DNA of 25,274 nt, taken from assembly GCA_031256615.1 (NCBI GenBank), contig JAIRQG010000149.1, positions 1 through 25,274 of the forward strand. Direction: 5' to 3'. Positions 10,760 to 24,916 of the stretch are shown piece after piece. The notes below the pieces were generated by a model. That model had not been told where the DNA came from and searched no databases. It saw only the letters and a program-made list of their open reading frames with translations. The translations under genes were made by a program, and so were the position numbers. Positions within the stretch are counted from its first letter, which is position 1, and each line of letters begins with the position of its first letter. Origin of the DNA: Candidatus Methanoplasma sp. (lineage in GTDB: Archaea > Thermoplasmatota > Thermoplasmata > Methanomassiliicoccales > Methanomethylophilaceae).

Positions 10760-10778
10760 ATTGGATTATACATCCAAT
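10760..10778. promoter_or_regulatory. Operator 1 of the proposed metal/tetrapyrrole regulon (upstream of cbiM)
   Basis: ATTGGAT-TATAC-ATCCAAT, a perfect 7-5-7 inverted repeat. The same half-sites recur at 10840, 19175 and 19220. It lies 141 bases before cbiM and about 25 bases after a TATA-like sequence (10729-10737), where a start point would be expected. Confidence 0.75.
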
Positions 10779-10839
10779 ATGATATGAGGAGATTGAATAA
10801 AATCAAGGGGCAAACATATGATCGGATTTCATTTAATTC

Positions 10840-10858
10840 ATTGGAGTATACCTCCAAT
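10840..10858. promoter_or_regulatory. Operator 2 (upstream of cbiM)
   Basis: ATTGGAG-TATAC-CTCCAAT, a perfect 7-5-7 inverted repeat. Compared with operator 1 the innermost base of each half-site has changed in a compensating way (T/A to G/C), so the symmetry itself is kept. It directly follows a TATA-like TTTAATTC at 10832-10839; a bound protein would probably block transcription initiation. Confidence 0.75.
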
Positions 10859-10900
10859 AATGGCCGCAGAAACAAAAACAAAATGGCAAAGGTGTGAATA

Positions 10901-11935
10901 ATGCACATAATGGAAGGTTACCTGCCAATAGAGTGGGCAATTTTCTGGACACTTGTCACCATACCGTTTTGGATATGGGGAGTAAGGGCTTTGAGAAAGT
11001 TCTTCATCGAACATCCCGAAAAGAAACTATCTCTTGCATTGTCAGGTGCATTTGTGATAATTCTATCATCACTTAAGATACCGTCTGTAACCGGGTCGTC
11101 ATCGCACCCTACAGGCACAGGACTGTCCGTGATGATCTCCGGGCCATGGATCACAGTCATCATATGTACGATCGTTCTGCTGTTCCAGGGGACATTCATG
11201 GCGCATGGCGGGTTCACAACGCTTGGGGCGAATGTGTTCTCAATGGGTATCGCCGGGCCGTTTGCTGCATATTTCCTCTTCAAGTATCTTAGAAAAATGA
11301 ATGTCAATGCGACAGTAACGGTTTTTGCCGTGGTATTCGTCGCAGATATAGTAACATACGTGGTGACCGCATTACAACTATCTCTTATCGTTCCTTACAC
11401 AGGCATAGGGGCATTCGCCTCTACGTACGGCACATTCTTTGGGATATTTGCGGTGACACAGATACCTATCGCTATCGCCGAGGGTTTAATGATGGTGTTC
11501 TTCTTCAAGTATCTGGCTGATGTGAGGCCGGATATGGTCAAAGGCATAGGATTCGATACAACGGTCCGCAACACAAGAGGAATACTGAGCGGCGAGGCAA
11601 AGGAAGGTATGGTCCGCATAACGAACAAGACCAAAACCCGTCTGATGATCGCAGGCTTCATCATAGTAACTGCTGTGATGGTACTTCTTGCACACTTCAT
11701 GGCTTTCTTTGGTGATATCGGCGGTGCGGACGATGCCGGCGCAGAGAAAATAGAATCACTTATCCCCGGATTCTCGCAATTGACAGAAAACTTCATACAG
11801 CTGGGCGAATACCAGCTCAGTTGGCTGTTCGTGCTTCAGACAGTGATCGGAGTTCTGATCCTTGCCTTTGTTGTGCGTCTGCTCATAAAGAGGAAACACG
11901 ATAAGGAAAAACGGGAGATCCAGGAAGAAACATGA
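10901..11935 (+). CDS. cbiM: Cobalt ECF transporter, CbiM-CbiN fusion (substrate-binding membrane component)
   Basis: S-component of the Co2+ ECF transporter. The mature-type N-terminus MHIMEGYLP places His2 next to the N-terminal amine, the known metal-binding arrangement in CbiM/NikM; H69 and H102 (FMAHGGFTTLGAN) are further candidate ligands. This fixes the start at 10901, backed by GGTG at 10891-10894. CbiM covers about residues 1-215. Residues about 247-332 resemble the usually separate CbiN: a membrane helix, an external segment FGDIGGADDAGAEKIESLIPG-like at 270-290, then a second helix. The 344-residue length against about 220 for CbiM alone supports a fusion. First gene of cbiMN-cbiQ-cbiO; its TGA overlaps the cbiQ ATG. 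Ni2+ as substrate cannot be excluded, but the cobalamin genes downstream favour cobalt. Confidence 0.92.
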   Translation: MHIMEGYLPIEWAIFWTLVTIPFWIWGVRALRKFFIEHPEKKLSLALSGAFVIILSSLKIPSVTGSSSHPTGTGLSVMISGPWITVIICTIVLLFQGTFMAHGGFTTLGANVFSMGIAGPFAAYFLFKYLRKMNVNATVTVFAVVFVADIVTYVVTALQLSLIVPYTGIGAFASTYGTFFGIFAVTQIPIAIAEGLMMVFFFKYLADVRPDMVKGIGFDTTVRNTRGILSGEAKEGMVRITNKTKTRLMIAGFIIVTAVMVLLAHFMAFFGDIGGADDAGAEKIESLIPGFSQLTENFIQLGEYQLSWLFVLQTVIGVLILAFVVRLLIKRKHDKEKREIQEET

Positions 11936-12735
11936 GCGAAGAGCACAGCAGTGAGTTCAATTCGGTGGATACGGCCGCATACAAGAGCCCTATGCTTAAT
12001 TGGTCTCCACTGGCCAAACTTTTTCTTATTCTTTCACTGCTTGTGCTGGATATTATTTCAAAATCAGTATGGATGTCAGCCTTTGCTTTTGCGGTGGGGC
12101 TGGTGTTATTCCTTTACGCCTCTTACCTGAGGCCGCCGAAGGTACTGATGCTGCTTTTCATTTATGCTCAGGTGCTGATAATCATCAGCGCCTTCGTTTT
12201 TATGGTAGTAACGCCGGGAGCAACTGTGGCGTCTGTGTGGATCGGCATGACGGTCAACATCACCGATGCAGGCGTTTCCTTTGGTATATTGATATACGCA
12301 AGAGCGACGGCAGCGCTTCTCCTTCTGTATTCTTTTGCGGTGTCAACACCGGTCCCCCGTTTGGCGGAAGCACTGAGGAAGCTCAGGTTCCCGGATGTCT
12401 TTGTGGAGCTTATGATCCTGATATACCGTTACACGTTCTTGCTGATGGAGACCGCGGAAAAGATGCATCTGGCCGCTGAATGTAAATTCGGCTATTCCGG
12501 ATACAGGAAAAGCATGAGCACCACATCAAAACTGGCGGTTGGTATTTTTATGCGTTCGCTTGAAACGGCAGAGAGAGGCCAGGTCACTCTTCAATGCAGA
12601 AACTACAGAGGGGAATTCAAAAGCTTATCCTCGTATAACAAACAGAACAAAACCGCGACAGTGCTTTGCGCTTCTATTGTTTGCATCGCAGTGGTGTTTT
12701 TCTTTGCACTGCGGTACGGAGTGCTGCCGATATGA
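11932..12735 (+). CDS. cbiQ: Cobalt ECF transporter T component CbiQ
   Basis: A 267-residue membrane scaffold protein that couples CbiM/N to the ATPase. It has about five to six hydrophobic helices (starting LAKLFLILSLLVLDII, then about 50-66, 70-93, 113-137, 160-173, and a last one at the C-terminus). Cytoplasmic coupling segments with the EcfT-type Ala-Arg-Gly signature are visible: ARATAALLLLYS and AERGQVTLQCRNYRG (ARG-like motif at 213-216). The start overlaps cbiM by four bases (ATGA) and its stop overlaps cbiO likewise. Family assignment is firm. Confidence 0.93.
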   Translation: MSEEHSSEFNSVDTAAYKSPMLNWSPLAKLFLILSLLVLDIISKSVWMSAFAFAVGLVLFLYASYLRPPKVLMLLFIYAQVLIIISAFVFMVVTPGATVASVWIGMTVNITDAGVSFGILIYARATAALLLLYSFAVSTPVPRLAEALRKLRFPDVFVELMILIYRYTFLLMETAEKMHLAAECKFGYSGYRKSMSTTSKLAVGIFMRSLETAERGQVTLQCRNYRGEFKSLSSYNKQNKTATVLCASIVCIAVVFFFALRYGVLPI

Positions 12736-13838
12736 CAAACGGAACGGCAACGATAATTGAGACGAAGGATCTCAGTTTTACGTATGAAGGCGGGAAACGG
12801 GCCCTGAAGAACATATCTGTCAAGATCCCGGCAGGGCGCAAGATCGCTTTCATAGGACCTAACGGTGCAGGAAAAAGCACATTGTTCATGCATTTCAACG
12901 GGATACTGAAACAGACGGAAGGGGAAGTCGAATACAACTCAAAGAAGGTCGAACATTCAAAAAAAGAACTGATCGAACTCAGGAAAGAGGTCACATTCGT
13001 TACGCAGAACCCAGACGATCAGATATTCAATGTAATTGTGGAGGATGATGTTGCCTTCGGCCCATTCAATTTGGATCTTCCTATTGAGGAGATCCGCAAA
13101 AGGGTCGATGATGCCCTCATGATGGTCGGCATGGAGAGCGAACGGCACAGACCGATCCACCATCTGTCTTTCGGACAAAGAAAAAGAGTGGCGGTCGCCA
13201 GCGCGCTTGTCATGAACCCTAAGGTATTGATAATGGATGAACCGACCGCAGGTCTGGATCCGGAAATGGTACACCGCCTTTATGAAATAGCGGACGAAGT
13301 GAACATGAAGGGTTCCACCGTAATAATATCAACTCATGATATCGAAACAGCATATTCATGGGCAGATATCGTGGTCGTTCTTGTTGACGGGGAGGTACTT
13401 GCGCAGGGAACGCCGTTCGAGGTGTTCTCCATGAAGGATGTGCTTGACAGGGCAGGTCTTTCTGTCCCGATGGTCCACGGGCTCAATGAGTTCATGAGTG
13501 CGAAGGGACACAGCACATACGGAAGGACAATGTCGACCGCATTGCTTAACATACGCAAAGAGGCGGAGCCCGGAATGCTTTACGTTATGAGGCCCGGACG
13601 CGAGGGGGAAATGTACGGCTGCGTCGGCATGTACGGAAGTTCATCCCGCAGCTTCATTGAGAATAAGGAGATAAGCGTGCAATTCAGATTCAACGCCATA
13701 GAGAGGTGCATCGAAGAGGTTCTGAGCGGGAAAGATTCAACGCTCTATCTTGATGAGTCTCTCAGCCATGTTCTTGACCATAAGCTCTCTGATGTTGCTG
13801 AGCACGGCATAACCATATCGGTGAAAGAATGCATATGA
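12732..13838 (+). CDS. cbiO: Cobalt ECF transporter ATP-binding protein CbiO, with C-terminal extension
   Basis: ABC ATPase of the cobalt ECF transporter, 368 residues. Walker A GPNGAGKST is at 42-50, Q-loop VTQNPDDQIFN at 90-100, signature LSFGQRKR at 145-152, Walker B LIMDEPTAGLD at 166-176 and H-loop His at 202. The Q-loop wording NPDDQIFN is characteristic of CbiO/EcfA proteins. Usual CbiO proteins are about 270-290 residues; here some 100 extra residues (about 265-368) form an alpha/beta tail of unknown role. Start at 12732 was chosen because it gives the ATGA overlap with cbiQ and the normal N-terminus; an upstream in-frame start would read through cbiQ. Confidence 0.94.
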   Translation: MTNGTATIIETKDLSFTYEGGKRALKNISVKIPAGRKIAFIGPNGAGKSTLFMHFNGILKQTEGEVEYNSKKVEHSKKELIELRKEVTFVTQNPDDQIFNVIVEDDVAFGPFNLDLPIEEIRKRVDDALMMVGMESERHRPIHHLSFGQRKRVAVASALVMNPKVLIMDEPTAGLDPEMVHRLYEIADEVNMKGSTVIISTHDIETAYSWADIVVVLVDGEVLAQGTPFEVFSMKDVLDRAGLSVPMVHGLNEFMSAKGHSTYGRTMSTALLNIRKEAEPGMLYVMRPGREGEMYGCVGMYGSSSRSFIENKEISVQFRFNAIERCIEEVLSGKDSTLYLDESLSHVLDHKLSDVAEHGITISVKECI

Positions 13839-13868
13839 CACTTTGATCGGAGACAATCGGCAGGAGAT

Positions 13869-13931
13869 ATGATTTGGAGAAGAAGCATGCAGAAAACGAA
13901 CGCCGAAACAATCCCTGAGGCAGATGTATGA
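13869..13931 (+). CDS. Possible 20-residue leader peptide between cbiO and the hydrolase
   Basis: A short frame beginning MIWRRSMQKTNAETIPEADV ends in a TGA that overlaps the hydrolase ATG (ATGA), like the real junctions around it. AGGAG at 13862-13866 precedes it but too closely for good initiation. An internal ATG at 13887 would give 14 residues. Could be chance. It might couple translation to the hydrolase. Confidence 0.2.
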   Translation: MIWRRSMQKTNAETIPEADV

Positions 13932-14728
13932 AAGATGTCGTTCTTTCTTTGGCACAGATGCGTTCTGTCGTGGGGGACGTCCGGGGCAACTTTGAACGAA
14001 TGAAATCCCTTACGGAAAGCGTCCTCGGCATCTCCGACATCATTTGTTTTCCTGAGGCGTGTCTTACCGGCTACGAAGCAGGGGACCCAGAGCCGTTCTG
14101 CATAGACCTGGAAGACGCAAGCATCTCAAGCGTATCCGAGCTTTCAAAAGAATGCGGCATGAACATCGTTTTTGGGTTCATGGAAAGGCGGAGGCCGCAT
14201 CTGCATATGACCCAATCCATCTCAGACCGCAATGGGAACATACATGTGTATCGGAAGACGCACCTCGGCCGGAAAGAGCGTAAGAAGTTCGTTCCCGGAA
14301 ATGAGATCCCGGTTTTTAAACTGCCAGAAGCGGCCGTCGGCATTCAGCTTTGCTGGGAATCCCACTTTCCGGATATTTCTACGAAGATGAGGAAAGACGG
14401 GGCGGATGTGATCCTGATCCCATATGCGTCGCCCAGTACGCCCCGCGACCGAAGGGAGATATGGATGAAACACCTTCCCGCCAGAGCTTATGATAACAGC
14501 GTATTTGTCGGTGCGGTGAACGCGGTCGGCGATAATAACAGAGGAGTTACTTTCGGAGGAGGCATAATGGTCTTTGACCCCAAAGGCAGTGTCCTGGCGG
14601 AACATTTCAGCAGAGGGGATTCTGTTGTGACGGTAGAATTGTCATCTGTCCTCCGCAGCAGTCTGGGTCAGGATGACAGCATGGGCAACACGGATTTCTT
14701 TCTGTACAGGCGCGACGATCTTTATTGA
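13928..14728 (+). CDS. Carbon-nitrogen hydrolase (nitrilase superfamily) in the cobalamin locus
   Basis: A 266-residue single-domain enzyme of the nitrilase/amidase superfamily, normal length. The Glu-Lys-Cys triad is visible: E43 in FPEACLTGYE, K110 in YRKTHLG, C142 in IQLCWESHFPD. It hydrolyses an amide or related C-N bond; the substrate cannot be told from the motifs. It lies between the cobalt transporter and CbiL on the same strand, so a role in corrinoid or F430 side-chain amides, or in metal-linked nitrogen metabolism, is a reasonable guess only. GAGG at 13917-13920 serves as ribosome binding site. A gap of 98 bases with its own operator-like site separates it from cbiL. Confidence 0.88.
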   Translation: MKDVVLSLAQMRSVVGDVRGNFERMKSLTESVLGISDIICFPEACLTGYEAGDPEPFCIDLEDASISSVSELSKECGMNIVFGFMERRRPHLHMTQSISDRNGNIHVYRKTHLGRKERKKFVPGNEIPVFKLPEAAVGIQLCWESHFPDISTKMRKDGADVILIPYASPSTPRDRREIWMKHLPARAYDNSVFVGAVNAVGDNNRGVTFGGGIMVFDPKGSVLAEHFSRGDSVVTVELSSVLRSSLGQDDSMGNTDFFLYRRDDLY

Positions 14729-14767
14729 TGAAAAAACCAATTACTTTTTGAGAATGCCGTTTGATGT

Positions 14768-14786
14768 GTTGGATGTATGTGCCAAA
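14768..14786. promoter_or_regulatory. Operator 5, degenerate copy upstream of cbiL
   Basis: GTTGGAT-GTATG-TGCCAAA keeps TTGG and CCAA at exactly the same 9-base spacing as the four perfect operators but loses symmetry elsewhere. It sits directly before a TATA-like CTATAATATG (14787-14796) and 40 bases before the cbiL ATG. Taken alone it could be chance; its location makes it a candidate weak site. Confidence 0.4.
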
Positions 14787-14826
14787 CTATAATATGCAGA
14801 ATGGTCATTGACCCCCTGGTGCCAGA

Positions 14827-15567
14827 ATGAAAGGAAAACTATACGGGGTTAGTGTAGGTCCGGGCGATCCCGAACTACTGACCCTTAAGGCTAAAAGGAT
14901 CATCGAAGAATGCGACGTCGTTGCGTATCCCGTCAGAGTGACCGGCGAACGCAGCGTTGCGCTTGGCATAATCGGAGGAACCGTTGATGTTTCTCGGAAG
15001 TGCATCCTGGAGCTCGTGTTCCGGATGTCCTCTGATAAAGAGATCAGGGCATTAGATTATGATGATGCAATAGCCAAGCTGACATCCGCGCTTGAAAAGG
15101 GGCATCGCGTATGCATGATAACACTCGGCGATGCGATGGTCTACAGTACATTCATGCGGGTAGGCAAGGAAATTGAGAACAGAGGTTATGAGATAGAAGT
15201 GATCCCCGGAGTGCCGTCATTCTGTGACGGGGCCGCAAGGGCGAAGATACCGCTGATGATAGGCACCGAAGGCCTTGCTGTTGTTTCAGCCGCAGAAGGA
15301 TCGGATTTTTTCCGTACTGCCCTGAATGATTTTGATAATGTTGTGATAATGAAAGCCTACGGCTCAATGGAAAGGATATCTGAGGAAATAGAGAGCCTCG
15401 ACAAGGCCCCGGATGTTTTCGTGGTAAGCAACATCGGCCTCGAAGATCAGTACGTAGGACCTCTGGACAAGAACAGGAAATATGGCTATTTCACCACGAT
15501 CATAGTGAAAAAGACGAATGGAGACCGAGAGGCAGCTTTCAGAACAAGCATAAGCATGGGAGAGTGA
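14827..15567 (+). CDS. cbiL: Cobalt-factor II C20-methyltransferase CbiL
   Basis: SAM-dependent tetrapyrrole methyltransferase of 246 residues that methylates C20 of cobalt-factor II (cobalt-sirohydrochlorin) in the anaerobic cobalamin route. The fold markers are KLYGVSVGPGDPELLTLKA at the N-terminus (SAM-binding GxGPGDxxxLT), the HRVCMITLGDAMVYST loop at about 96-112 and EVIPGVPSFCDGAARAKIPL at about 123-143. These are specific to the CobI/CbiL branch. The cobalt transporter and CbiX-type chelatase in the locus favour CbiL over aerobic CobI. GGTG at 14818-14821 precedes the ATG by five bases. Its stop lies four bases before cbiH. Confidence 0.93.
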   Translation: MKGKLYGVSVGPGDPELLTLKAKRIIEECDVVAYPVRVTGERSVALGIIGGTVDVSRKCILELVFRMSSDKEIRALDYDDAIAKLTSALEKGHRVCMITLGDAMVYSTFMRVGKEIENRGYEIEVIPGVPSFCDGAARAKIPLMIGTEGLAVVSAAEGSDFFRTALNDFDNVVIMKAYGSMERISEEIESLDKAPDVFVVSNIGLEDQYVGPLDKNRKYGYFTTIIVKKTNGDREAAFRTSISMGE

Positions 15568-15571
15568 GGCC

Positions 15572-16306
15572 ATGTCCGGAAAATTATATGTTGTGGGGTT
15601 TGGACCCGGAAGCAAAGAGGACATGACCCTGAGGGCGGTCAATGCGATAGAGGGCGCCGATCTGATCATAGGTTACATAACGTACACGGACCTCCTCAGA
15701 GAATACTTCCCGGACAAAGAATACAAGGCGACCGGTATGATGAAAGAGATCGAGCGCTGCAAGATAGCCATTGAGGAGGCCGAGAAAGGCCAGACGGTCG
15801 CGATGGTAAGCAGCGGAGACTCAGGGATATACGGCATGGCCGGAATAATCTATCAAATGGCGGAAGAGATGAGATCCGATATCGAGATAGAAACGATACC
15901 CGGCGTGACCGCAGCATCATCAGCCGCATCGATACTGGGCGCGCCGTTGATGCACGACCTTGCGATCATAAGCCTCTCTGATCTTATGACCCCTATTGAC
16001 CTGATCATGAAACGCATCGACCGGGCAAGCGAAGGTGATATGATAATCGCTCTGTATAACCCGAAGAGCAAGAAGCGTACAGACCATCTTCAAAAGGCGG
16101 CGGAGATTATTTGCAGATACCGTTCTCCAAATACTCCCGTGGGCATCGTGAGGAACGCCGGCAGAAAAGGTGAAAGCAAGGTCATTACAGAACTGGGCTC
16201 GATGGATTATGATGAAATAGATATGTTCTGCATTGTGATAATCGGCAATAGCCAGACGTATATTTCTAACGGAAGAATGATCACGCCGAGAGGTTATAGA
16301 ATATAA
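15572..16306 (+). CDS. cbiH: Cobalt-factor III / precorrin-3B C17-methyltransferase CbiH
   Basis: SAM-dependent ring-contracting methyltransferase, 244 residues, that methylates C17 of cobalt-factor III in anaerobic cobalamin synthesis. Diagnostic segments are KLYVVGFGPGSKEDMTLRA, IIGYITYTDLL at about 32-42, MVSSGDSGIYGMAG at about 72-85, IPGVTAASSAASILGAPLMHD at about 108-128 and LYNPKSKKRTDHL, all typical of CobJ/CbiH. There is no fused [4Fe-4S] or CbiG-like domain. The start follows cbiL by four bases, with GAGG just upstream. It ends in TAA, 26 bases before the chelatase ATG. Confidence 0.94.
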   Translation: MSGKLYVVGFGPGSKEDMTLRAVNAIEGADLIIGYITYTDLLREYFPDKEYKATGMMKEIERCKIAIEEAEKGQTVAMVSSGDSGIYGMAGIIYQMAEEMRSDIEIETIPGVTAASSAASILGAPLMHDLAIISLSDLMTPIDLIMKRIDRASEGDMIIALYNPKSKKRTDHLQKAAEIICRYRSPNTPVGIVRNAGRKGESKVITELGSMDYDEIDMFCIVIIGNSQTYISNGRMITPRGYRI

Positions 16307-16332
16307 GGGCGCATCAAAGGGTGTTTGAAACA

Positions 16333-17142
16333 ATGAAAACTGATAAAAAGGAATGCGCCACGCCCGGCGATATATTTGTGCTGCTGATCGGACACGGGTC
16401 CAAGTTGCCGTACAACAGAGAAATGGCAGATATGCATGCAAGATTGCTGAGGGATAAAGGGTACAGGGTCTACATGGCGTTCAATGAGATAACTGACCCG
16501 AACATAGAAGATACGATGATGCTTATGATCAAAGACGGAGCCGAAGAGATAGTAGCACTGCCTCTTTTCATCGCGTCCGGTAAGCATACGGAGAAAGAGA
16601 TACCTTTCAAACTTGGGATCCCGGAGGGATACGGGACAGGCAAGTCAACAAGATACGGCAGGGAGGTCACAATCCATTATAATGAACCTTTTGGCGATGA
16701 CCCAGACGTTACACAGGTACTCTTCCAAAGGTTGAAAGAGACAGGCTGTTCCGATGATGCAGGGGTGCTGCTTGTTGCTCACGGTTCCTCGATGAGACAT
16801 AATTCTGACCTTGCGAACGAGACATCCGACCGCCTCAGAGCGGCAGGCATCAGGAACGTGTTCGTGGGTTTCAATGAATACAACGAACCCACGATAGAGG
16901 ATTCATATGCTAAGATAATAGACGCAGGGTGTGATGAGATCGTTGTACTTCCGATGTTTCTTGCTTCGGGCACTCATGTGAGCGAACAGATACCGGAGAA
17001 ACTGGGCATACAGAGAGATCGTAACTTTGGGATCGTCAAAAAAGGAGACAGGAACATAGCCATATACTACGCAGAAACCCTCGGGCTCAATCGAGGTATG
17101 AACGATATCCTGGTTAAAAAGATCCAGAGATCAGGAGTGTAA
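16333..17142 (+). CDS. cbiX: Tandem-domain sirohydrochlorin chelatase (CbiX/CfbA family)
   Basis: Inserts Co2+ (cobalamin route) or possibly Ni2+ (F430 route) into sirohydrochlorin. The 269-residue protein contains two CbiX-type domains, about 14-130 and 143-262. Domain 1 has GHGS (H21) and SGKHTEKEIP (H85); domain 2 has AHGS (H150) and SGTHVSEQIP (H215). The His-His spacings of 64 and 65 equal that of single-domain archaeal CbiX (His10/His74 in the A. fulgidus enzyme), so both sites look complete. Archaeal CbiX/CfbA are usually about 120-140 residues and act as dimers; this is a covalent dimer. No His-rich or iron-sulfur tail as in long bacterial CbiX. I chose the ATG at 16333 (GGTG at 16320-16323 upstream); a GTG at 16321 would add four residues. 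Confidence 0.92.
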   Translation: MKTDKKECATPGDIFVLLIGHGSKLPYNREMADMHARLLRDKGYRVYMAFNEITDPNIEDTMMLMIKDGAEEIVALPLFIASGKHTEKEIPFKLGIPEGYGTGKSTRYGREVTIHYNEPFGDDPDVTQVLFQRLKETGCSDDAGVLLVAHGSSMRHNSDLANETSDRLRAAGIRNVFVGFNEYNEPTIEDSYAKIIDAGCDEIVVLPMFLASGTHVSEQIPEKLGIQRDRNFGIVKKGDRNIAIYYAETLGLNRGMNDILVKKIQRSGV

Positions 17143-17153
17143 TGTTCAGGCAG

Positions 17154-17172
17154 GAACATCTCAGAGATGTTC
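17154..17172. promoter_or_regulatory. 19-bp perfect palindrome before the metal ATPase
   Basis: GAACATCTC-A-GAGATGTTC is a perfect 9-1-9 inverted repeat located 12 bases after the chelatase stop and 40 bases before the ATPase GTG. A further half-site ATGTTC lies at 17142-17147, six bases upstream, so three half-sites are spaced across 31 bases. As RNA it makes an 8-bp stem with a CAG loop, followed by T5 at 17181-17185. It could be a metal-regulator operator for the ATPase or a partial terminator/attenuator between the two genes. It shares no sequence with the ATTGGAT operators. Confidence 0.5.
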
Positions 17173-17211
17173 TCATTCAATTTTTATGAGGTCTGCACAG
17201 GAGGCGTTTGT

Positions 17212-19062
17212 GTGCTGAAAGAAGAAAAACGGAACATTGTTTTTGTTATAATTTCGGCGGCGGCGCTTCTATTAAGTCTGTCCGGTGTCCTGAAAGATCC
17301 GCTGCCCTTTGACATTGCATGGGTGGCTATTGTGCTTTGCGGAGTCCCGATAGTGATAAGCTCCGCGACAGCTTTGATCAAAGAACACAACATCAAAGCC
17401 GATGTATTGGTCTCGATCGCGCTGATAGCGGCCGTCATCATCGGCGAATATTTCGCCGCGGGCGAGGTCGCTTTGATAATGGCGGTCGGCACGCTGCTCG
17501 AAGACGCGACAGCCCGCAAAGCAAGAAAGGGAATAGAGAAACTCATAAAACTTACGCCCAGAACAGCGAGGGTAAAGAGAAACGGCAAGGAAGAGATCAT
17601 CCCGGCAGACGATTTGCGTGTGGACGATGTGATAGTTGTATTCGCCGGCGAAACCATTGCAGTGGACGGGATCATCGTTCTCGGCGAAACATCGGTCGAC
17701 CAGTCGGTCATGATGGGCGAATCCATCCCCGCGGACAAAACCGTTGGCGATGTGGTGATAAGCGGAACGACCAATCTCTTCGGCACCTTTGAGATGCGGT
17801 CGACAAAGATCGGTAAAGACAGTTCGCTGCAAAGGATGATACAGCTTGCAGAAGAGGCGGACGCCAATAAAGCCCCCATTGTCAGGCTGGCGGACCGATG
17901 GGCAACATGGCTTGTTGTTGTAGCGCTCACTGTGGCAGGATTGACATGGATGCTCACCGGCGAATTGGTGCGCGGGGTCACAGTGCTTGTTGTTTTCTGC
18001 CCCTGCGCTTTCATCCTCGCAACGCCTACCGCGGTCATGGCATGCATAGCGAATGTAACGAGATTTGGCATCATTGTACGTTCCGGCGATGCCCTGCAGC
18101 GGTTTTCTCAGATCAGTAATGTTGCATTCGATAAGACGGGTACGCTTACACAAGGGAAGCCGGAAGTAATAGGGGTGAACAGTCTCGATCCCTCGTTTAG
18201 CAACGATGAACTGCTCAGGTTGGCTGCTTTGGCGGAACAGCGTTCCGAGCATCCGTTCGGGAAAGCTGTATTGAAGCATTATCTAAGCCACGGCGGCACA
18301 CCGCAGGAGATACAAGACTTCGTGCTGTCAGCCGGCATGGGGGTCAGCGCAACAGTGGACGGTCACGCCGTCTCCGTCGGAAAAGCAGGTCATATCCGAA
18401 AAGAGAATATCTTCATTTCCGATACAGCATTACATATTGCGAGTGAATATCAAAACAGGGGTGCGACCATTATCTACGTTGGTGTGGACGGCAGACTGGC
18501 GGGAACGATCGCACTCGCGGATGTCTTGCGGAGTACGGCAAAACCCTTGATCGCGGAACTTAAGCGCATCGGCGTGCATCCTATTCTTTTGACAGGGGAC
18601 AACAAAGCAACCGCGCAGTTCATCGCATCCGAGGCAGGCATCGAAGATGTAAGATCGGACATGCTGCCGGAAGATAAGATGAGAGTTATCAAAGAATACA
18701 CAAGTGACGGAAAGAACATATGCATGATAGGCGACGGCATCAATGATTCGCTCGCATTAAGGTCTGCTTATGCAGGGATAGCAATGGGCGGAGTGGGCAG
18801 TGACATTGCCGTTGAAGCCGCGGACGCGGTGCTTGTGAGCGACAATATCGAAAAGATCCCCCACCTTTTCAAAATGGCAAAGAAAACCATGAGCAGGATA
18901 AGTTTCAACATTGCAGCCGCCATGGTTTGGAATGCATTTGCAGTAGCCTTTTCCGTGATGGGCATGCTTAACCCTGTGACCGCAGCATTAGTGCACAATA
19001 TAGGTTCAGTTTTCGTTGTTGTAAGCTCTGTGCTGCTGATCTCTAATAAAGCCGATATGTGA
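17212..19062 (+). CDS. P1B-type heavy-metal transporting ATPase
   Basis: A 616-residue metal-pumping P-type ATPase, normally an exporter. Motifs in order: actuator loop GES at 169-171, metal-site CPC at 263-265 in the membrane, phosphorylated D307 in DKTGTLT, HP at 347-348, TGDN at 461-464, GDGIND at 507-512. The last membrane helices carry WNAFAV, then LNPVTAALVHNIGSV with H595-N596, in place of the Cu-type MxxSS or the Zn/Cd-type Lys/Asp pair, so the metal cannot be assigned. There is no N-terminal CxxC metal-binding domain. The GTG at 17212 was chosen for its AGGAGG seven bases upstream. An ATG at 17167 would add 15 residues including CTGGVC but starts within the palindrome. Position between a metal chelatase and tetrapyrrole genes suggests cobalt or nickel balance, but copper or zinc remain open. 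Confidence 0.9.
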   Translation: MLKEEKRNIVFVIISAAALLLSLSGVLKDPLPFDIAWVAIVLCGVPIVISSATALIKEHNIKADVLVSIALIAAVIIGEYFAAGEVALIMAVGTLLEDATARKARKGIEKLIKLTPRTARVKRNGKEEIIPADDLRVDDVIVVFAGETIAVDGIIVLGETSVDQSVMMGESIPADKTVGDVVISGTTNLFGTFEMRSTKIGKDSSLQRMIQLAEEADANKAPIVRLADRWATWLVVVALTVAGLTWMLTGELVRGVTVLVVFCPCAFILATPTAVMACIANVTRFGIIVRSGDALQRFSQISNVAFDKTGTLTQGKPEVIGVNSLDPSFSNDELLRLAALAEQRSEHPFGKAVLKHYLSHGGTPQEIQDFVLSAGMGVSATVDGHAVSVGKAGHIRKENIFISDTALHIASEYQNRGATIIYVGVDGRLAGTIALADVLRSTAKPLIAELKRIGVHPILLTGDNKATAQFIASEAGIEDVRSDMLPEDKMRVIKEYTSDGKNICMIGDGINDSLALRSAYAGIAMGGVGSDIAVEAADAVLVSDNIEKIPHLFKMAKKTMSRISFNIAAAMVWNAFAVAFSVMGMLNPVTAALVHNIGSVFVVVSSVLLISNKADM

Positions 19063-19139
19063 GAAAACTGCCGCTGAGAAGAGTTTCCGCAATGCTCCGA
19101 CCAGGACGCCAGGTCTGCGGGGAACATTCGCGGCACGCC

Positions 19140-19145
19140 TTTTTT
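19140..19145 (+). terminator. U-tract terminator after the metal ATPase
   Basis: A T6 run about 80 bases after the ATPase stop, preceded by a GC-rich stretch (GCGGCACGCC) and imperfect stem arms CCGCA/TGCGG. Archaeal termination mainly needs a T-run, so this is a likely end for the upstream operon and separates it from the sirC promoter that begins about 20 bases on. Confidence 0.45.
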
Positions 19146-19174
19146 CTTCAAGGTCAAACCATCATTTAAAACTG

Positions 19175-19193
19175 ATTGGATTTATCGTCCAAT
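19175..19193. promoter_or_regulatory. Operator 3 (upstream of sirC-hemA operon)
   Basis: ATTGGAT-TTATC-GTCCAAT, a 7-5-7 inverted repeat with one imperfect pair at the innermost position. It directly follows a TATA-like TTTAAAAC (19165-19172), the same geometry as operator 2 before cbiM. Confidence 0.72.
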
Positions 19194-19219
19194 ATATTAT
19201 TATAAAAGATTAACATTTA

Positions 19220-19238
19220 ATTGGATGGCTAATCCAAT
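19220..19238. promoter_or_regulatory. Operator 4 (at the start of sirC)
   Basis: ATTGGAT-GGCTA-ATCCAAT, a perfect 7-5-7 inverted repeat, 45 bases centre to centre from operator 3. It lies about 13 bases after another TATA-like sequence (TTATAAAAG, 19199-19207), so it would cover the start point of transcription. It contains the earliest possible sirC ATG, one reason to prefer a later start. Confidence 0.75.
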
Positions 19239-19248
19239 GATGATGAAC

Positions 19249-19872
19249 ATGGCAAAAATGATCCCTTTATTTATGTCACCGGAAGACCTGAAGGTGCTTG
19301 TTGTGGGCGGAGGAAAAGTCGCACTTCGGAAATGCATCCACTTTGAGGGCGCAGAGATCACTGTGATCGCTGAAGAGACCGTACCGGGAATTGAGGATGT
19401 GGCCGCATCTGTGATAAGAAAAAGGACAACCTCATTGGAAATACGAGAAATGATGGATGAATTCGACATTGTGGTAGCGGCAACCGATGATATGACCTTG
19501 AACTCAGAGATAAAGGACGAAGCGCTGCGCCTGGGCCTCTTTGTCAATTCTGCGCACGGAGGAGGCAACATCACAATGCCGTCCACCCTAAGAAAGGAAA
19601 ATTACACGGTATCAGTATCGACCGAGGGAAGGCTTCCCGCATTCCCTCCGTATGTGGTAAAAGAGCTAGAGACGTTCCTTGACGGAAGGTTCGACGCCAT
19701 GTTCGATGTGCTGTATGAATCCAGAAAGATGTGTGCGGGGAAAGGGACTCAGGCGGAGCGCGCCGAGTTCCTGAGGAGAGTATCTCTCGACCCGGAAGTG
19801 GGCAGGTTGGTCAAAGCGAAGGATGTGGCATCGGCCATGGAGAGGGTCAGAACAATGGGAGTGCCGCAATGA
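19249..19872 (+). CDS. sirC: Precorrin-2 dehydrogenase (sirohydrochlorin-forming)
   Basis: NAD-dependent enzyme that oxidises precorrin-2 to sirohydrochlorin, the substrate of the chelatase encoded upstream. Of about 207 residues, the N-terminal Rossmann part shows LKVLVVGGGKVALRKC; the middle has FDIVVAATDDMTLNSEI, then LFVNSAHGGGNITMPSTL, as in the N-terminal domain of CysG/Met8 and SirC. A helical dimer tail follows (FPPYVVKELETFLDG). There is no ferrochelatase domain signature, so it is most likely a stand-alone dehydrogenase. Several ATGs precede the domain (19225, 19237, 19240, 19243, 19249, 19258). 19225 lies inside an operator and 19249 gives MAKMIPLF, close to the usual family N-terminus; the exact start is uncertain. 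Head of the tetrapyrrole operon; ends in an ATGA overlap with hemA. Confidence 0.9.
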   Translation: MAKMIPLFMSPEDLKVLVVGGGKVALRKCIHFEGAEITVIAEETVPGIEDVAASVIRKRTTSLEIREMMDEFDIVVAATDDMTLNSEIKDEALRLGLFVNSAHGGGNITMPSTLRKENYTVSVSTEGRLPAFPPYVVKELETFLDGRFDAMFDVLYESRKMCAGKGTQAERAEFLRRVSLDPEVGRLVKAKDVASAMERVRTMGVPQ

Positions 19873-21107
19873 TCATCAGCCTGCATGTAACGCATTCTGA
19901 AGCAGGGGTCGAGGCAATGAGCGGGGTTGCGCAGAAAATGGAATCTAACATTGCCAAATACTTGCAGAATACAACATCCAAGAATGAATATGTGATCCTG
20001 AAAACATGCAACCGTTTCGAGATATATGTGGGAACGGATGATGTTGAACCCGTAAAAAAGGAGTTCGAGTCCTTCATTGAGAACACCGTACCAAATTCAA
20101 AGGAGCAGTGCACGCCCTTCATACGGCAGGAACAGGGGGCGGTCAGACATCTTTTCAGGGTGTCGTGCGGCCTGGACTCTCTCATCGTCGGAGAAGACCA
20201 TATACAGGGACAGATCCGGGATGCATACACTCTGGCAAAAGAAGAGGGACATGTCTCCAAGCATATTTCCAAACTTTTTGACAGGGCCCTTTGGGTCGGT
20301 AAAAGGGTAAGGACAGAGACAAAGATAAGTTCTGGCTCAGTGTCGGTCGGGTCTGCGGCCGTGGAATTGGCGGTGCAGATGACCGGAGGATTGAGAGGCA
20401 AGACCATCACGATCTTCGGTTCAGGGAGCATGGCAGCAGCGATCGGAGAGAATCTTTTGGATAAAGATGTGCAGATAGCCATCGTCTCAGGCCGGACATA
20501 CAACAGAGCTGTTGATCTGGCACATATGTTAGGAGGTACCGCCCTGAGTTTTGAGTGCCTTGCACTGGCGGCCTCAGAGAGCGATGTTCTGTTCGTCGCC
20601 ACTTCTGCCCCGCATATAATAATCACTCCGGAGATGATCCGTTCCACAGGAGAAAGGAACAAGCCGCTGTATATTGTGGATGTGTCTGTTCCAAAGAATG
20701 TGGACGATGCCGTAGGAGATATCTTCGGCGTATCGCTGAAGGGAATGGACGGGCTTCAGGGAGTGGCAGCCGAGAATATACGGAGGAGGAGAGAAGGGAT
20801 CTCCCAGGCTGAGCGCATCGTGGATGAAGAGGTTGCCAGGGTTGACTCCGAGCATTTGGAGGAAAAAGCGGACCATGTTATCGGGGAGATAAGCAGAAAA
20901 GCGGCCATAATAAGAGAAGAAGAGGTCTCCAGAGCAAGATGCAGGGCCGCATATGCTGATATCAATGAGGTGTTCGACGATCTGTCAAGAGCGATCGTTT
21001 CAAAAATACTTGCCGACACTTACAAAAAACTCAGAAGCTCTTCGGCCAATGGAGAAAGCGGCATCATAGATGCCGCGAAAGACCTTTTCGGGCTGGAGGC
21101 GAAATAA
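19869..21107 (+). CDS. hemA: Glutamyl-tRNA reductase
   Basis: NADPH-dependent reduction of glutamyl-tRNA(Glu) to glutamate-1-semialdehyde, the committed step of C5-pathway tetrapyrrole synthesis. The product is 412 residues, a normal length. The catalytic Cys is C47 in LKTCNRFEIY; the substrate-recognition segment FRVSCGLDSLIVGEDHIQGQ follows near residue 97. The NADPH Rossmann motif ITIFGSGSMAAAIGENLL lies near 180, and the C-terminal helical dimerisation region contains RRRREGISQAERIVDEEV. Start at 19869 gives the typical MIISLHVTH N-terminus and a four-base overlap with sirC. An upstream in-frame start at 19731 would lie inside sirC and is rejected. Its TAA shares one base with the hemB ATG. 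Confidence 0.97.
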   Translation: MIISLHVTHSEAGVEAMSGVAQKMESNIAKYLQNTTSKNEYVILKTCNRFEIYVGTDDVEPVKKEFESFIENTVPNSKEQCTPFIRQEQGAVRHLFRVSCGLDSLIVGEDHIQGQIRDAYTLAKEEGHVSKHISKLFDRALWVGKRVRTETKISSGSVSVGSAAVELAVQMTGGLRGKTITIFGSGSMAAAIGENLLDKDVQIAIVSGRTYNRAVDLAHMLGGTALSFECLALAASESDVLFVATSAPHIIITPEMIRSTGERNKPLYIVDVSVPKNVDDAVGDIFGVSLKGMDGLQGVAAENIRRRREGISQAERIVDEEVARVDSEHLEEKADHVIGEISRKAAIIREEEVSRARCRAAYADINEVFDDLSRAIVSKILADTYKKLRSSSANGESGIIDAAKDLFGLEAK

Positions 21108-22075
21108 TGTTCCCGGCGGACAGGATGAGGCGCGTGCGCCTGAACGAAAGAGTAAGAAACATGCTGACAGAGACCAGGCTGCATCCGGATGACCTCGTGC
21201 TTCCGCTGTTCTTTGATGAGACAATTGACAGCGTGAAATACGTTGACTCCATGCCGGGGGTCCCCACATATCCTCTGAGCAAAGCAGAGGAGGTCGCCGA
21301 GAGGCTTCACTCATCGGGGATCAATGCCGTCTTGCTTTTCGGAGTGCCGAAACATAAGGACGGCACAGGCTCCGGCGCGTATTCGGCAGACGGCGTGGTG
21401 CAGAATGCCGTAAGAAAAATACGGTCCTGCTCAGATCTGGTTGTCATCGCAGATCTCTGTATGTGCGAATATACGGACCATGGGCACTGCGGGATAATCA
21501 CTGATGGAAAGGTGGACAATGACGCCACTCTCCCGTACTACGGAAAGATCGCAGGGTCTCTTGCGGAAGCGGGCGCCCACATGGTGGCCCCGAGCGGCAT
21601 GATGGACGGTCAGGTATTGAGCATAAGGGAAGCGCTTGACGACGGTGGTCATGAAGAAGTTTCGATAATGGCGTACAGCGCAAAGTTCTGCAGTTCATTC
21701 TACGGTCCCTTCAGAGATATAGCGCATTCGGCCCCCTCCGCAGGAGGCAGGGAATCTTACCAGATGAATCCTGCAAACGGAAGAGAGGCAATGTCCGAGA
21801 TAATCCTGGACATCCAGGAGGGAGCGGACATCATCATGGTGAAACCGGCGATGCCGTACCTCGATATCATAAGGCAGGCAAGAGATGAATTCAGCGTTCC
21901 AATAGCGGCGTACCAGGTCTCCGGAGAGTATGCAATGATAAAGGCAGCGGCCGCGAACGGATGGATAGACGAGCGCAGAGCAATGATGGAGTCCCTGACA
22001 TCGATAAAAAGGGCCGGTGCCGATATACTGATATCATATTTTGCCGAAGAAGTTGTAAAGGAGCTGCGGCGATGA
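21107..22075 (+). CDS. hemB: Porphobilinogen synthase (delta-aminolevulinate dehydratase), Zn type
   Basis: Condenses two 5-aminolevulinates to porphobilinogen. 322 residues, normal length. The two Schiff-base lysines are K193 (YSAKFCSSFYGPFRD) and K246 (IIMVKPAMPYLD). The metal site C118, C120, C128 in DLCMCEYTDHGHCG is the three-cysteine zinc type. The N-terminal RMRRVRLNERVRNML and the PSGMMDGQV loop are standard. Translationally coupled on both sides: one-base overlap with hemA and four-base overlap with hemL. Confidence 0.97.
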   Translation: MFPADRMRRVRLNERVRNMLTETRLHPDDLVLPLFFDETIDSVKYVDSMPGVPTYPLSKAEEVAERLHSSGINAVLLFGVPKHKDGTGSGAYSADGVVQNAVRKIRSCSDLVVIADLCMCEYTDHGHCGIITDGKVDNDATLPYYGKIAGSLAEAGAHMVAPSGMMDGQVLSIREALDDGGHEEVSIMAYSAKFCSSFYGPFRDIAHSAPSAGGRESYQMNPANGREAMSEIILDIQEGADIIMVKPAMPYLDIIRQARDEFSVPIAAYQVSGEYAMIKAAAANGWIDERRAMMESLTSIKRAGADILISYFAEEVVKELRR

Positions 22076-23322
22076 ACAGAGGAACATCTCAGTGCAATTA
22101 TCAGGAAATGAGAAAACTCACACCCGGCGGAGTATCCAGCCCTGTCAGGGCCTTTGAACCTCATCCTATTTTCATCAAAGAAGGAAAAGGATGCATGATG
22201 ACCGATGTTGACGGAAACGAGTATGTGGATCTATGCATGGCATACGGGCCGCTGATACTCGGCCATTCCCATCCGTCCGTCGTGTCGGTGCTGGAACGAC
22301 AGATCGGCAAAGGGACGGTCTTCGGCGCACCCTCTCCCGAAGAGAAGGACCTGATCGCAGAGATATCCAAAAGGGTCCCCTGCGCAGAGATGGTGCGTCT
22401 CGTCAACTCCGGGACCGAGGCCACGATGCACTCCATACGCCTTGCGAGAGGGTACACGGGCAAACGCGGCATCATAAAGATGAACGGGGGGTTCCACGGA
22501 TCGCACGATGCGGTCCTGTCGGACAGTTCGCAGCCTCCGAAAAAGAACGGGATACTTCGAGAGACGGCGTCCTTCACGCACGTTGTCGAATACAACTCCG
22601 AAGAACAGCTGGCATCTGTCCTGGAAAAGAACGATGACGTAGCAGCCGTGATAATGGAGCCTGTGCTGGGCAATGTGGGAGTGGTCGCGCCGAAGAAGGA
22701 TTATCTTGAAAATGTCAGGAAGATGACCCGGGAGAAAGAAGTATTGCTGATATTCGATGAGGTGATAACAGGATTCAGATTATCATCCGGAGGAGCACAG
22801 AAATTCTACAATGTGATCCCGGACATATGCACAATGGGCAAGATCATGGGCGGCGGCCTTCCGGCAGGAGCGTTGGCAGGACGCAAAGACATAATGCAGA
22901 ATCTTGCTCCGGAAGGGCCTGTGTATCAGGCGGGCACGTTCTCCGGCAATCCGATGACGGCAGCCGCAGGAACGGCGGCGCTGAGAGAGATGACGGAAGA
23001 AAGATACACCGCGCTGAATAAAATGAGCTCGGAACTCATATCTTCCGTTTCGGATTCTCTGGAGGATAACAGGATATCCGCCGCACTGAATGCGGCAGGA
23101 TCGATGTTCCAGATATTCTTTGATGTAAGCGCCGTGAACAACGGAACGGATGCGCAGAAATGCAATAGGGGAAAATATACAGACCTTTTCAGACGCATGC
23201 TTGACTCCGGAGTATACATGCCGCCGGCGGCTCTTGAGGTAAACTTTATGTCAACGGAGCACAGGTTGAAACTTCAAAAATTATCAGAGGAATTTGACAA
23301 AAACCTAAGGTGCATAGTATGA
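22072..23322 (+). CDS. hemL: Glutamate-1-semialdehyde 2,1-aminomutase
   Basis: PLP enzyme that moves the amino group of glutamate-1-semialdehyde to give 5-aminolevulinate, acting between HemA and HemB. 416 residues. The PLP lysine is K257 in TMGKIMGGGLPAGALAG. Upstream are the cofactor-binding segments VNSGTEATMHSIRLAR (112-127), NGGFHGSHD (138-146) and FDEVITGFR (228-236), all specific for the GSAM group of class III aminotransferases. The N-terminus has LTPGGVSSPVRAF, the usual GSAM signature. ATG at 22072 overlaps the hemB stop; a frame extension back to 21961 lies within hemB and is not used. Confidence 0.97.
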   Translation: MNRGTSQCNYQEMRKLTPGGVSSPVRAFEPHPIFIKEGKGCMMTDVDGNEYVDLCMAYGPLILGHSHPSVVSVLERQIGKGTVFGAPSPEEKDLIAEISKRVPCAEMVRLVNSGTEATMHSIRLARGYTGKRGIIKMNGGFHGSHDAVLSDSSQPPKKNGILRETASFTHVVEYNSEEQLASVLEKNDDVAAVIMEPVLGNVGVVAPKKDYLENVRKMTREKEVLLIFDEVITGFRLSSGGAQKFYNVIPDICTMGKIMGGGLPAGALAGRKDIMQNLAPEGPVYQAGTFSGNPMTAAAGTAALREMTEERYTALNKMSSELISSVSDSLEDNRISAALNAAGSMFQIFFDVSAVNNGTDAQKCNRGKYTDLFRRMLDSGVYMPPAALEVNFMSTEHRLKLQKLSEEFDKNLRCIV

Positions 23323-24179
23323 TCATCGGCACAAGGGACAGCAGGCTGGCGCTTGCTCAAACAGACCTATTCGTCAAAACGGCTGCCGCGCACGTCCGTA
23401 CGGAAATGAAGATAAAGAAAATAAAGACCGCAGGGGATACAGATCAGATATCCGACCTGAAAGACATGGGAGGGTACGGAGCTTTTGTCAGGGAATTGGA
23501 CAGTGCCTTGATGGCAAGAGAGATAGACGTATCCGTGAACTCCATGAAAGATGTGCCAGTTCTCAGAGATCCCGGAATAATGATAGGTGCGGTCCTTCCG
23601 AGGGCTCCCTGCGAGGACGTGATCCTTCCCACCAAGCTTGACAAGCTTCCTTTCGGAGCGGTTGTAGGGTCATCATCGGTCAGAAGGTCCGTGATCATAA
23701 ACCACATGCGCCCGGACATTGAGGTCAGAGGATTGCGCGGAAACATTGACACAAGACTCAGGAAGCTCGACAGCGGCGAATATGACGCGATCATCCTGGC
23801 AAAGGCCGGGCTTGAACGCCTGAATATCAGGAGGGAGATGCACACCCTCGATATGGATATGTTCGTACCCGCTCCGGCACAGGGCGCGATAGCGGTTGCC
23901 TGCAGGTCGTCCGATACAGAGACAATAGAGGTCCTCAAAAAGATCGACGACATCGACACAAGGATAGAAACACAGGCAGAGCGCGCCATAATGAAGATAA
24001 TGGGCGGCATATGCTCGTCGCCGATCGGCATAAACGCAAAAAGAGAGAAGGACGAACTGAGGATAAGGGCGATCTTCTTCGACGGGACTGTACTCAGGAA
24101 ATGCGACACCGTGATACCTGCAGACCATACTGTCTCCGACCTGGAAAAGATCGCCGCGGAACTGAAAGGGGTCTTATGA
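23319..24179 (+). CDS. hemC: Hydroxymethylbilane synthase (porphobilinogen deaminase)
   Basis: Polymerises four porphobilinogens into hydroxymethylbilane. 286 residues. The dipyrromethane cofactor attachment Cys is C232 in GGICSSPIG. Arginines and loops of the active site are seen in IGTRDSRLALAQT, DVSVNSMKDVP, GSSSVRRSV and VRGLRGNIDTRLRKL. The FVPAPAQGAIAVACR segment is standard. ATG at 23319 overlaps the hemL TGA (ATGA). It ends in TGA overlapping the start of cobA. Confidence 0.97.
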   Translation: MIIGTRDSRLALAQTDLFVKTAAAHVRTEMKIKKIKTAGDTDQISDLKDMGGYGAFVRELDSALMAREIDVSVNSMKDVPVLRDPGIMIGAVLPRAPCEDVILPTKLDKLPFGAVVGSSSVRRSVIINHMRPDIEVRGLRGNIDTRLRKLDSGEYDAIILAKAGLERLNIRREMHTLDMDMFVPAPAQGAIAVACRSSDTETIEVLKKIDDIDTRIETQAERAIMKIMGGICSSPIGINAKREKDELRIRAIFFDGTVLRKCDTVIPADHTVSDLEKIAAELKGVL

Positions 24180-24916
24180 TGAAAGGCAAGGTATATTTGG
24201 TAGGGGCGGGGCCCGGCGATACAGATCTGATAACCGTAAGAGGCCTGAACCTCCTGAGGACAGCTGACGTTGTGGTACATGATGCGCTGATTGACAGATC
24301 GATACTGATTGAATGCGGAAATGCGGAGATGATAGACGCAGGCAAGCGCGGCGGAGACCACACAATGAGCCAGAGCGAGATAAACAGCACTCTGGTAGAG
24401 CTCGCGAAAAAAGGCAATACCGTCGTCCGCCTGAAAGGAGGAGACCCGTTCCTTTTCGGAAGGGGGGCGGAAGAGGCTGCTGAACTCAGAAAAGCGGGGA
24501 TAGAAGTGCATGTGGTCCCGGGGGTGTCATCATCGATATCCGTGCCGGAACTCGCGGGAATACCGCTGACGCACAGAGACCATGCGCCCATGGTAACCAT
24601 CGTAACAGGTCATGAGAGATCGGACAGGGACGGCGACAGAGTGGACTGGAGAAAGTTAGCCTCGACGGGAGGAACGATAGTCATACTGATGGGCATGAGC
24701 AATTCAGAGTACATATCCAAAGAACTCATCGAGGGAGGAATGGACCCGGAGACTCCCGCAGCAGTGAATATTCGGGATAAGGGAAAGCAGAAAACGGAAA
24801 CAGCATCGCTGAGTTCGTTGTCCTCAATGATATCAGAAAAGAAACTGAAAGCGCCGGGCGTGATCGTCATCGGCGGGGTAGTAAAGGAAAGAGGTACTTT
24901 GGGGGACCTCTATTGA
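24176..24916 (+). CDS. cobA: Uroporphyrinogen-III C-methyltransferase (SUMT)
   Basis: SAM-dependent enzyme that methylates uroporphyrinogen III at C2 and C7 to give precorrin-2, substrate of SirC. 246 residues, a single SUMT domain without the CysG dehydrogenase half or a fused HemD. Markers are GKVYLVGAGPGDTDLITVRG at the N-terminus, VVVHDALID, VVRLKGGDPFLFGRGAEEA at about 83-101, VVPGVSSSISVPELAGIPLTHR-like segment at about 113-134 and a TGHE motif. ATG at 24176 overlaps the hemC stop; a second ATG at 24179 is equally possible and changes one residue. Its TGA overlaps the next start. Confidence 0.97.
   Translation: MMKGKVYLVGAGPGDTDLITVRGLNLLRTADVVVHDALIDRSILIECGNAEMIDAGKRGGDHTMSQSEINSTLVELAKKGNTVVRLKGGDPFLFGRGAEEAAELRKAGIEVHVVPGVSSSISVPELAGIPLTHRDHAPMVTIVTGHERSDRDGDRVDWRKLASTGGTIVILMGMSNSEYISKELIEGGMDPETPAAVNIRDKGKQKTETASLSSLSSMISEKKLKAPGVIVIGGVVKERGTLGDLY

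Follow-up and report, generated by a model that had tools for sequence, protein, structure and literature searches.

A palindrome shared by cbiM and sirC promoters

What is the function of a 19-bp palindrome that stands twice before the cobalt importer gene cbiM and twice before the precorrin-2 dehydrogenase gene sirC in Candidatus Methanoplasma sp.? We addressed this question in a stretch of 25,274 nucleotides (the window: GenBank assembly GCA_031256615.1, contig JAIRQG010000149.1, positions 1 to 25,274). An initial annotation, made from the letters alone, had proposed a selected operator that joins cobalt import to sirohydrochlorin supply, and the genome scan, the relatives and the orthologous promoters described below all bear this proposal out. 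Judged from sequence comparison, the palindrome very probably serves as operator for a single dimeric regulator that governs a cobalt/corrinoid regulon in Methanomassiliicoccales, because the sites concentrate before such genes, recur in orthologous promoters, keep their spacing at sirC, and are absent from the other orders of the class that were sampled.

The motif scored in the window was ATTGGA-N7-TCCAAT (12 fixed bases), with TTGGA/TCCAA as its 10-base core. The four annotated inverted repeats all match it exactly, and two further features accompany them:

10760..10778, no strand: operator 1 before cbiM, ATTGGATTATACATCCAAT; exact match, with counterparts in genomes G016 and G005
10840..10858, no strand: operator 2 before cbiM, ATTGGAGTATACCTCCAAT; exact match, with counterparts in G016 and G005
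19175..19193, no strand: operator 1 before sirC, ATTGGATTTATCGTCCAAT; exact match, with counterparts in congeners
19220..19238, no strand: operator 2 before sirC; exact match, overlapping a possible ATG at 19225
14768..14786, no strand: candidate for a weaker operator, upstream of cbiL; mismatched at one core base
19193..19207, forward strand: TATA-like stretch TATATTATTATAAA between the sirC sites, seen in the alignment; putative promoter element

Exact matches were expected 0.0075 times per window (400 order-1 Markov windows), compared with the four observed. At three mismatches the window held eight matches, fewer than shuffled sequences (mean, 15), so only its exact matches are meaningful. 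The remaining four of the eight places have three mismatches each, in agreement with the annotation's statement that no further full copy is present. However, the place at 14768, which had been set aside as weak, misses only 1 of the 10 core bases. Since it also lies 40 bp before cbiL, and sites occur upstream of cbiL in two of six other cbiL loci (exact in L046, one mismatch in L137), this sequence may be a weaker operator. Compared over 7-bp half-sites, the repeats at 10760 and 19220 are fully symmetric, that at 19175 is asymmetric (T..G), and that at 10840 carries the paired G/C change already pointed out in the annotation. The centre-to-centre spacings of 80 and 45 bp were likewise correct. 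A TATA-like element had been described beside each site; at sirC, TATATTATTATAAA is common to G016 and partly to other congeners, but no clear conserved TATA box was seen at cbiM.

Sites concentrate before cobalt and corrinoid genes

In the source assembly (G000; 1.18 Mb, 81% complete), ATTGGA-N7-TCCAAT at one mismatch or fewer occurred in 16 places, compared with 2 for the reversed control pattern. The stricter pattern TTGGAK-N5-MTCCAA gave 13 sites and no reversed match, and the centres of all 13 fall between 56 bp inside and 132 bp before the start of an open reading frame (ORF) called by script. According to family searches and reading, 13 of the 16 places belong to cbiM (two), sirC (two), CobN-like genes (three), a CbiA-type amidase, Btu-type binding proteins (two), ATP-binding cassette (ABC) ATPases (two), and an operon encoding a zinc ribbon and a DUF4443 protein. 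The rest comprise an isochorismatase gene and two unrelated genes (contigs C8 and C114), the C114 place lying within coding sequence.

We then clustered the genes that lie no more than 2.5 kb from a site in a sample of sites whose loci were retrieved. They fell into Btu-type binding proteins (18 genomes, 9 of them with a kind that bears dockerin), permeases (15), ABC ATPases (13), CobN (9), and zinc ribbons (4). CobT, CbiT, adenosylhomocysteinase, and NrdJ, a B12-dependent ribonucleotide reductase, were site-linked at or above family cut-offs; a CfbC-like protein, a corrinoid protein, and CbiK fell below the cut-off, and CbiC and CbiX were recognized by reading. Of the 14 sites in G187, a complete genome, 10 adjoin such cobalt/corrinoid genes, 1 adjoins a phosphohexomutase-like gene, and 3 have no ORF called nearby. 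The annotation had expected matches before cbi, cfb, transport, and hem genes. Matches did occur before cobalt/corrinoid genes and sirC-hemA, but coenzyme F430 synthesis was represented by the single CfbC-like gene only. In other respects the regulon is wider than proposed, extending to Btu-type uptake, CobN and other chelatases, CobT, CbiT, a CbiK-like protein, and the B12-dependent ribonucleotide reductase. By reading, many of the site-linked binding proteins carry dockerin-like repeats (for example, L021 1243-4240), which is unusual for B12-type uptake.

The motif recurs across the order

The strict motif was present in 52 of 61 relatives' genomes, and a control match in 2. The motif is neither scattered at random nor absent from relatives, the two outcomes that the annotation had named as speaking against a shared operator. 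In a draw across the phylum, all but one of the order's 21 genomes had the strict motif, compared with none of the 23 genomes that represented other orders of the class. We compared orthologous promoters in 30 cbiM and 30 sirC loci (out of 41 genomes having each gene), defining a near site as one with at most one core mismatch within 400 bp of the gene. One locus at the end of a contig (L146) was cut wrongly and contributed no site to these counts. Near sites were found at 14 cbiM loci (0.39 expected from shuffles) and 18 sirC loci (0.37 expected), and in alignments of relatives the sites appear as conserved islands. The pair at sirC is spaced 44 or 45 bp apart in seven of nine loci of the genus, the exceptions being G009, with none, and G010, with two weak sites 150 bp apart. 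At cbiM, spacing is less well kept (80, 85, and 101 bp). The sirC spacing, at 4.2 to 4.3 helical turns, is not exactly in phase; its conservation in these sequences suggests cooperative binding, as the annotation had supposed for both pairs.

Several observations weigh against a single cobalt/corrinoid operator of the order. Near sites were lacking at 16 of 30 cbiM loci and 12 of 30 sirC loci, G017 and G043 had no sites, and G040 and G012 had one each. Elsewhere in the phylum, 25 of 103 genomes had a match (three in one genome, one in each of the others) versus 7 of 103 for the control, and control matches numbered three in G187 and two in G175. Isochorismatase, adenosylhomocysteinase, and a dehydrogenase are site-linked yet not obviously related to cobalt, and a B12-dependent ribonucleotide reductase fits poorly with simple repression by corrinoid. 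Finally, one site (G041 C1:242063; L276 3438-3522) is the anticodon arm of a tRNA-Ser (gct). An identical sequence that accounts for six matches outside the order in the phylum draw probably has the same cause, and such anticodon arms are a trap for genome scans with this pattern.

Start codon overlap at some sites and this tRNA case would be compatible with chance palindromes or RNA hairpins, an explanation that is almost certainly wrong. It is contradicted by the reversed-pattern, shuffle, and Markov controls and by the conserved islands, and on these grounds we rejected it. Moreover, sirC site 1 precedes the TATA-like stretch and therefore presumably acts as DNA, not as leader RNA. Only 1 of the 151 sites in the loci analyzed falls inside a tRNA, and the window contains no tRNA and no Rfam match.

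Genes of the window and a proposed model of repression

The genes of the window downstream of and between the operators are as follows (family models in parentheses; those with TIGR and NF numbers were matched above cut-off):

10901..11935, forward strand: cbiM with a CbiN-like C-terminal part, cobalt importer S component (TIGR00123)
11932..12735, forward strand: cbiQ (TIGR02454)
12735..13838, forward strand: cbiO (TIGR01166)
14827..15567, forward strand: cbiL (TIGR01467)
15572..16306, forward strand: cbiH (TIGR01466)
16321..17142, forward strand: sirohydrochlorin chelatase with two tandem CbiX/CfbA-type domains (NF033198; also PF01903)
17167-19062: heavy-metal P-type ATPase (NCBIfam)
19225..19872, forward strand: sirC, precorrin-2 dehydrogenase, start possibly at 19252 (TIGR01470)
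19857..21107, forward strand: hemA (TIGR01035)
21107..23322, forward strand: hemB and hemL (ORF reading, without family search)
23310..24179, forward strand: hemC (ORF reading, without family search)
24176..24916, forward strand: cobA, uroporphyrinogen-III methyltransferase (TIGR01469)

The P-type ATPase gene lies between the cbi and sirC-hem clusters and has no exact operator of its own.

We propose that a homodimer would read both half-sites and that paired sites would be bound cooperatively. In archaea, a site just before or after the TATA box or across the start usually blocks initiation, so the sites beside TATA elements or across starts are predicted to repress. Cobalt import, chelation, tetrapyrrole supply, and corrinoid uptake would then be shut off when corrinoid or, less likely, cobalt is sufficient; the genes controlled point to corrinoid as the effector, with Co2+ second. 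Because methylotrophic methanogens in this order rely on methyl transfer by corrinoids, how much methane they release should be influenced by their supply of cobalt and corrinoid. The operator map lists the genes under control, places cobalt uptake in a common circuit with the early steps of tetrapyrrole synthesis, helps to tell cobalt/corrinoid transporters from look-alikes, and offers a testable candidate for an archaeal B12 regulator.

Parallels in other archaea

Bacterial cobalamin riboswitches control the same kinds of genes; here, in contrast, the element is a DNA palindrome. For some archaea, Rodionov et al. reportedly described a CBL-box in 2003 as the site of a hypothetical B12 regulator, and the sites reported here likewise stand before cobalamin genes in archaea. 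In loci from the order of a Thermococci metagenome-assembled genome (MAG), presumably Thermococcales, we found a box, TGGA-N2-TTTTATCCA, after a TATA element at cbiB or the preceding gene. This box has the half-site core and spacing of our motif (TGGA-N7-TCCA) and is possibly the CBL-box. It gave 34 matches in 52 partly overlapping loci and none when reversed, although the pattern was written after the box had been seen and one match looks unrelated. A TTGGA-type core with up to two mismatches gave a weak signal upstream of cbiB (7 of 30 loci, 1 of them exact, versus 2.73 expected), and palindrome discovery through shared hexamers in CobS loci yielded nothing useful. In the system described here, by comparison, the box is TTGGAT-N5-ATCCAA and often paired, and it stands before a wider gene set that includes cobalt import and sirC-hemA.

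The annotation knew of no published archaeal regulator with this motif. The consensus indeed did not appear in the open-licence literature searched, but a predicted cobalamin regulon exists for Pyrococcus furiosus, with the regulator entered as 'CblrR (unknown)' (PMC10746257). That regulon, like ours, covers B12 genes. No described transcriptional control by cobalt or B12 was found for Methanomassiliicoccales in the open-licence literature searched, where searches with DUF4443 and CBL-box terms also gave no match. Hence, the kind of system is known in outline, while this order, the consensus, the paired sites, and the wider regulon were not found there.

Candidate regulators

Compatible with an operator of a cobalt/corrinoid regulon, the protein that binds it could be a winged-helix DUF4443 protein (PF14544, PH0730-like), either the zinc-ribbon-linked paralogue or the core copy; its C-terminal domain would serve as the sensor. 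We regard this as possible, at somewhat less than an even chance. The protein combines a winged helix-turn-helix of the CggR_N type, a DNA-binding fold, with the DUF4443 domain, and its structural model (predicted local distance difference test score, 88.6) is nearest to Pyrococcus PH0730 and to CggR bound to DNA. The order site, zinc ribbon, DUF4443 recurs in six arrangements from five genomes of two families (G000, G001, G007, G041, and twice in G116), and in G116 and G041 a DUF4443 gene comes after Btu-type permease/ATPase genes. In G038, G049, and G052, the core copy lies 67 to 120 bp from a site, and the genomes of G049 and G052 (one family) have no other strict site. The annotation had called for a DNA-binding protein that tracks the motif and whose own gene carries it. 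Zinc-ribbon-linked copies do carry the site, but most core copies do not, and the core copy does not track the motif: G027 (99% complete) has sites but lacks this copy, and G017, G040, and G043 carry it with one site at most. This pattern weakens the core copy as sole binder. In addition, a site-headed zinc ribbon in G187 has no adjacent DUF4443 gene, the core copy mostly accompanies S-adenosylmethionine synthetase, where none of the family's listed loci showed an exact site, and the single Thermococci homologue seen adjoins other genes.

Only tentatively, then, and as a rather doubtful generalization, we suggest that the DUF4443/PH0730 family is the missing archaeal B12 regulator: a corrinoid-sensing repressor of TGGA-N7-TCCA boxes in Thermococcales and Methanomassiliicoccales, often joined in the latter by a zinc-ribbon partner for a metal signal, that would govern genes from cobalt import and tetrapyrrole supply through B12-dependent ribonucleotide reductase.

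A DUF4443 protein of the source genome is 66 to 74% identical to proteins from Methanomassiliicoccaceae and Candidatus Methanoplasma MAGs, which points to a Methanomassiliicoccales methanogen as host. A longer DUF4443 protein (∼330 amino acids; L093 2702-3727, G000:C77) is encoded next to what we read as mcrC and the gene of an AtwA-type ATPase. Long copies of this kind occur in most genomes surveyed for the family and hint at a methanogenesis-linked regulator. G116 has eight DUF4443 copies (L181-L186), several beside zinc-ribbon genes or Btu-type transporters.

The counter-evidence to DUF4443 counts in favor of another, unrecognized transcription factor, for which the chance comes close to even. 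Regulators read beside sites were single cases, AsnC-type in L074 and TetR-type in L178; against this option, no other regulator family recurred beside sites, in genomes that were not inventoried for regulators. Archaeal DtxR-family sites resemble the motif in length and symmetry, a likeness the annotation had raised, but a DtxR-type regulator is not supported: no such gene was recognized by eye beside the sites examined, and a genome-wide search was not made.

A Fur-like protein encoded before cbiM is a further candidate: 19-bp dyads are typical of Fur-family metal regulators, and a Fur-like gene directly precedes cbiM in 16 of 30 loci. An exact site stands ahead of fur in two of these loci and between fur and cbiM in L106. 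However, the motif does not accompany the fur gene. A site near cbiM was present in 1 of 16 fur loci versus 13 of 14 others (P = 2 × 10−6), and when sites before fur were counted as well, in 3 of 16 (P = 6 × 10−5), neither value being corrected for relatedness. Fur is therefore a very improbable binder, disfavored by the near exclusion of fur and motif at cbiM. The source genome has two cbiM genes: the first is controlled by a site and has no fur, and the second (L323, G000:C67, 4365-5680) follows a fur gene and lacks an exact site. Cobalt import may thus be subject to two separate controls.

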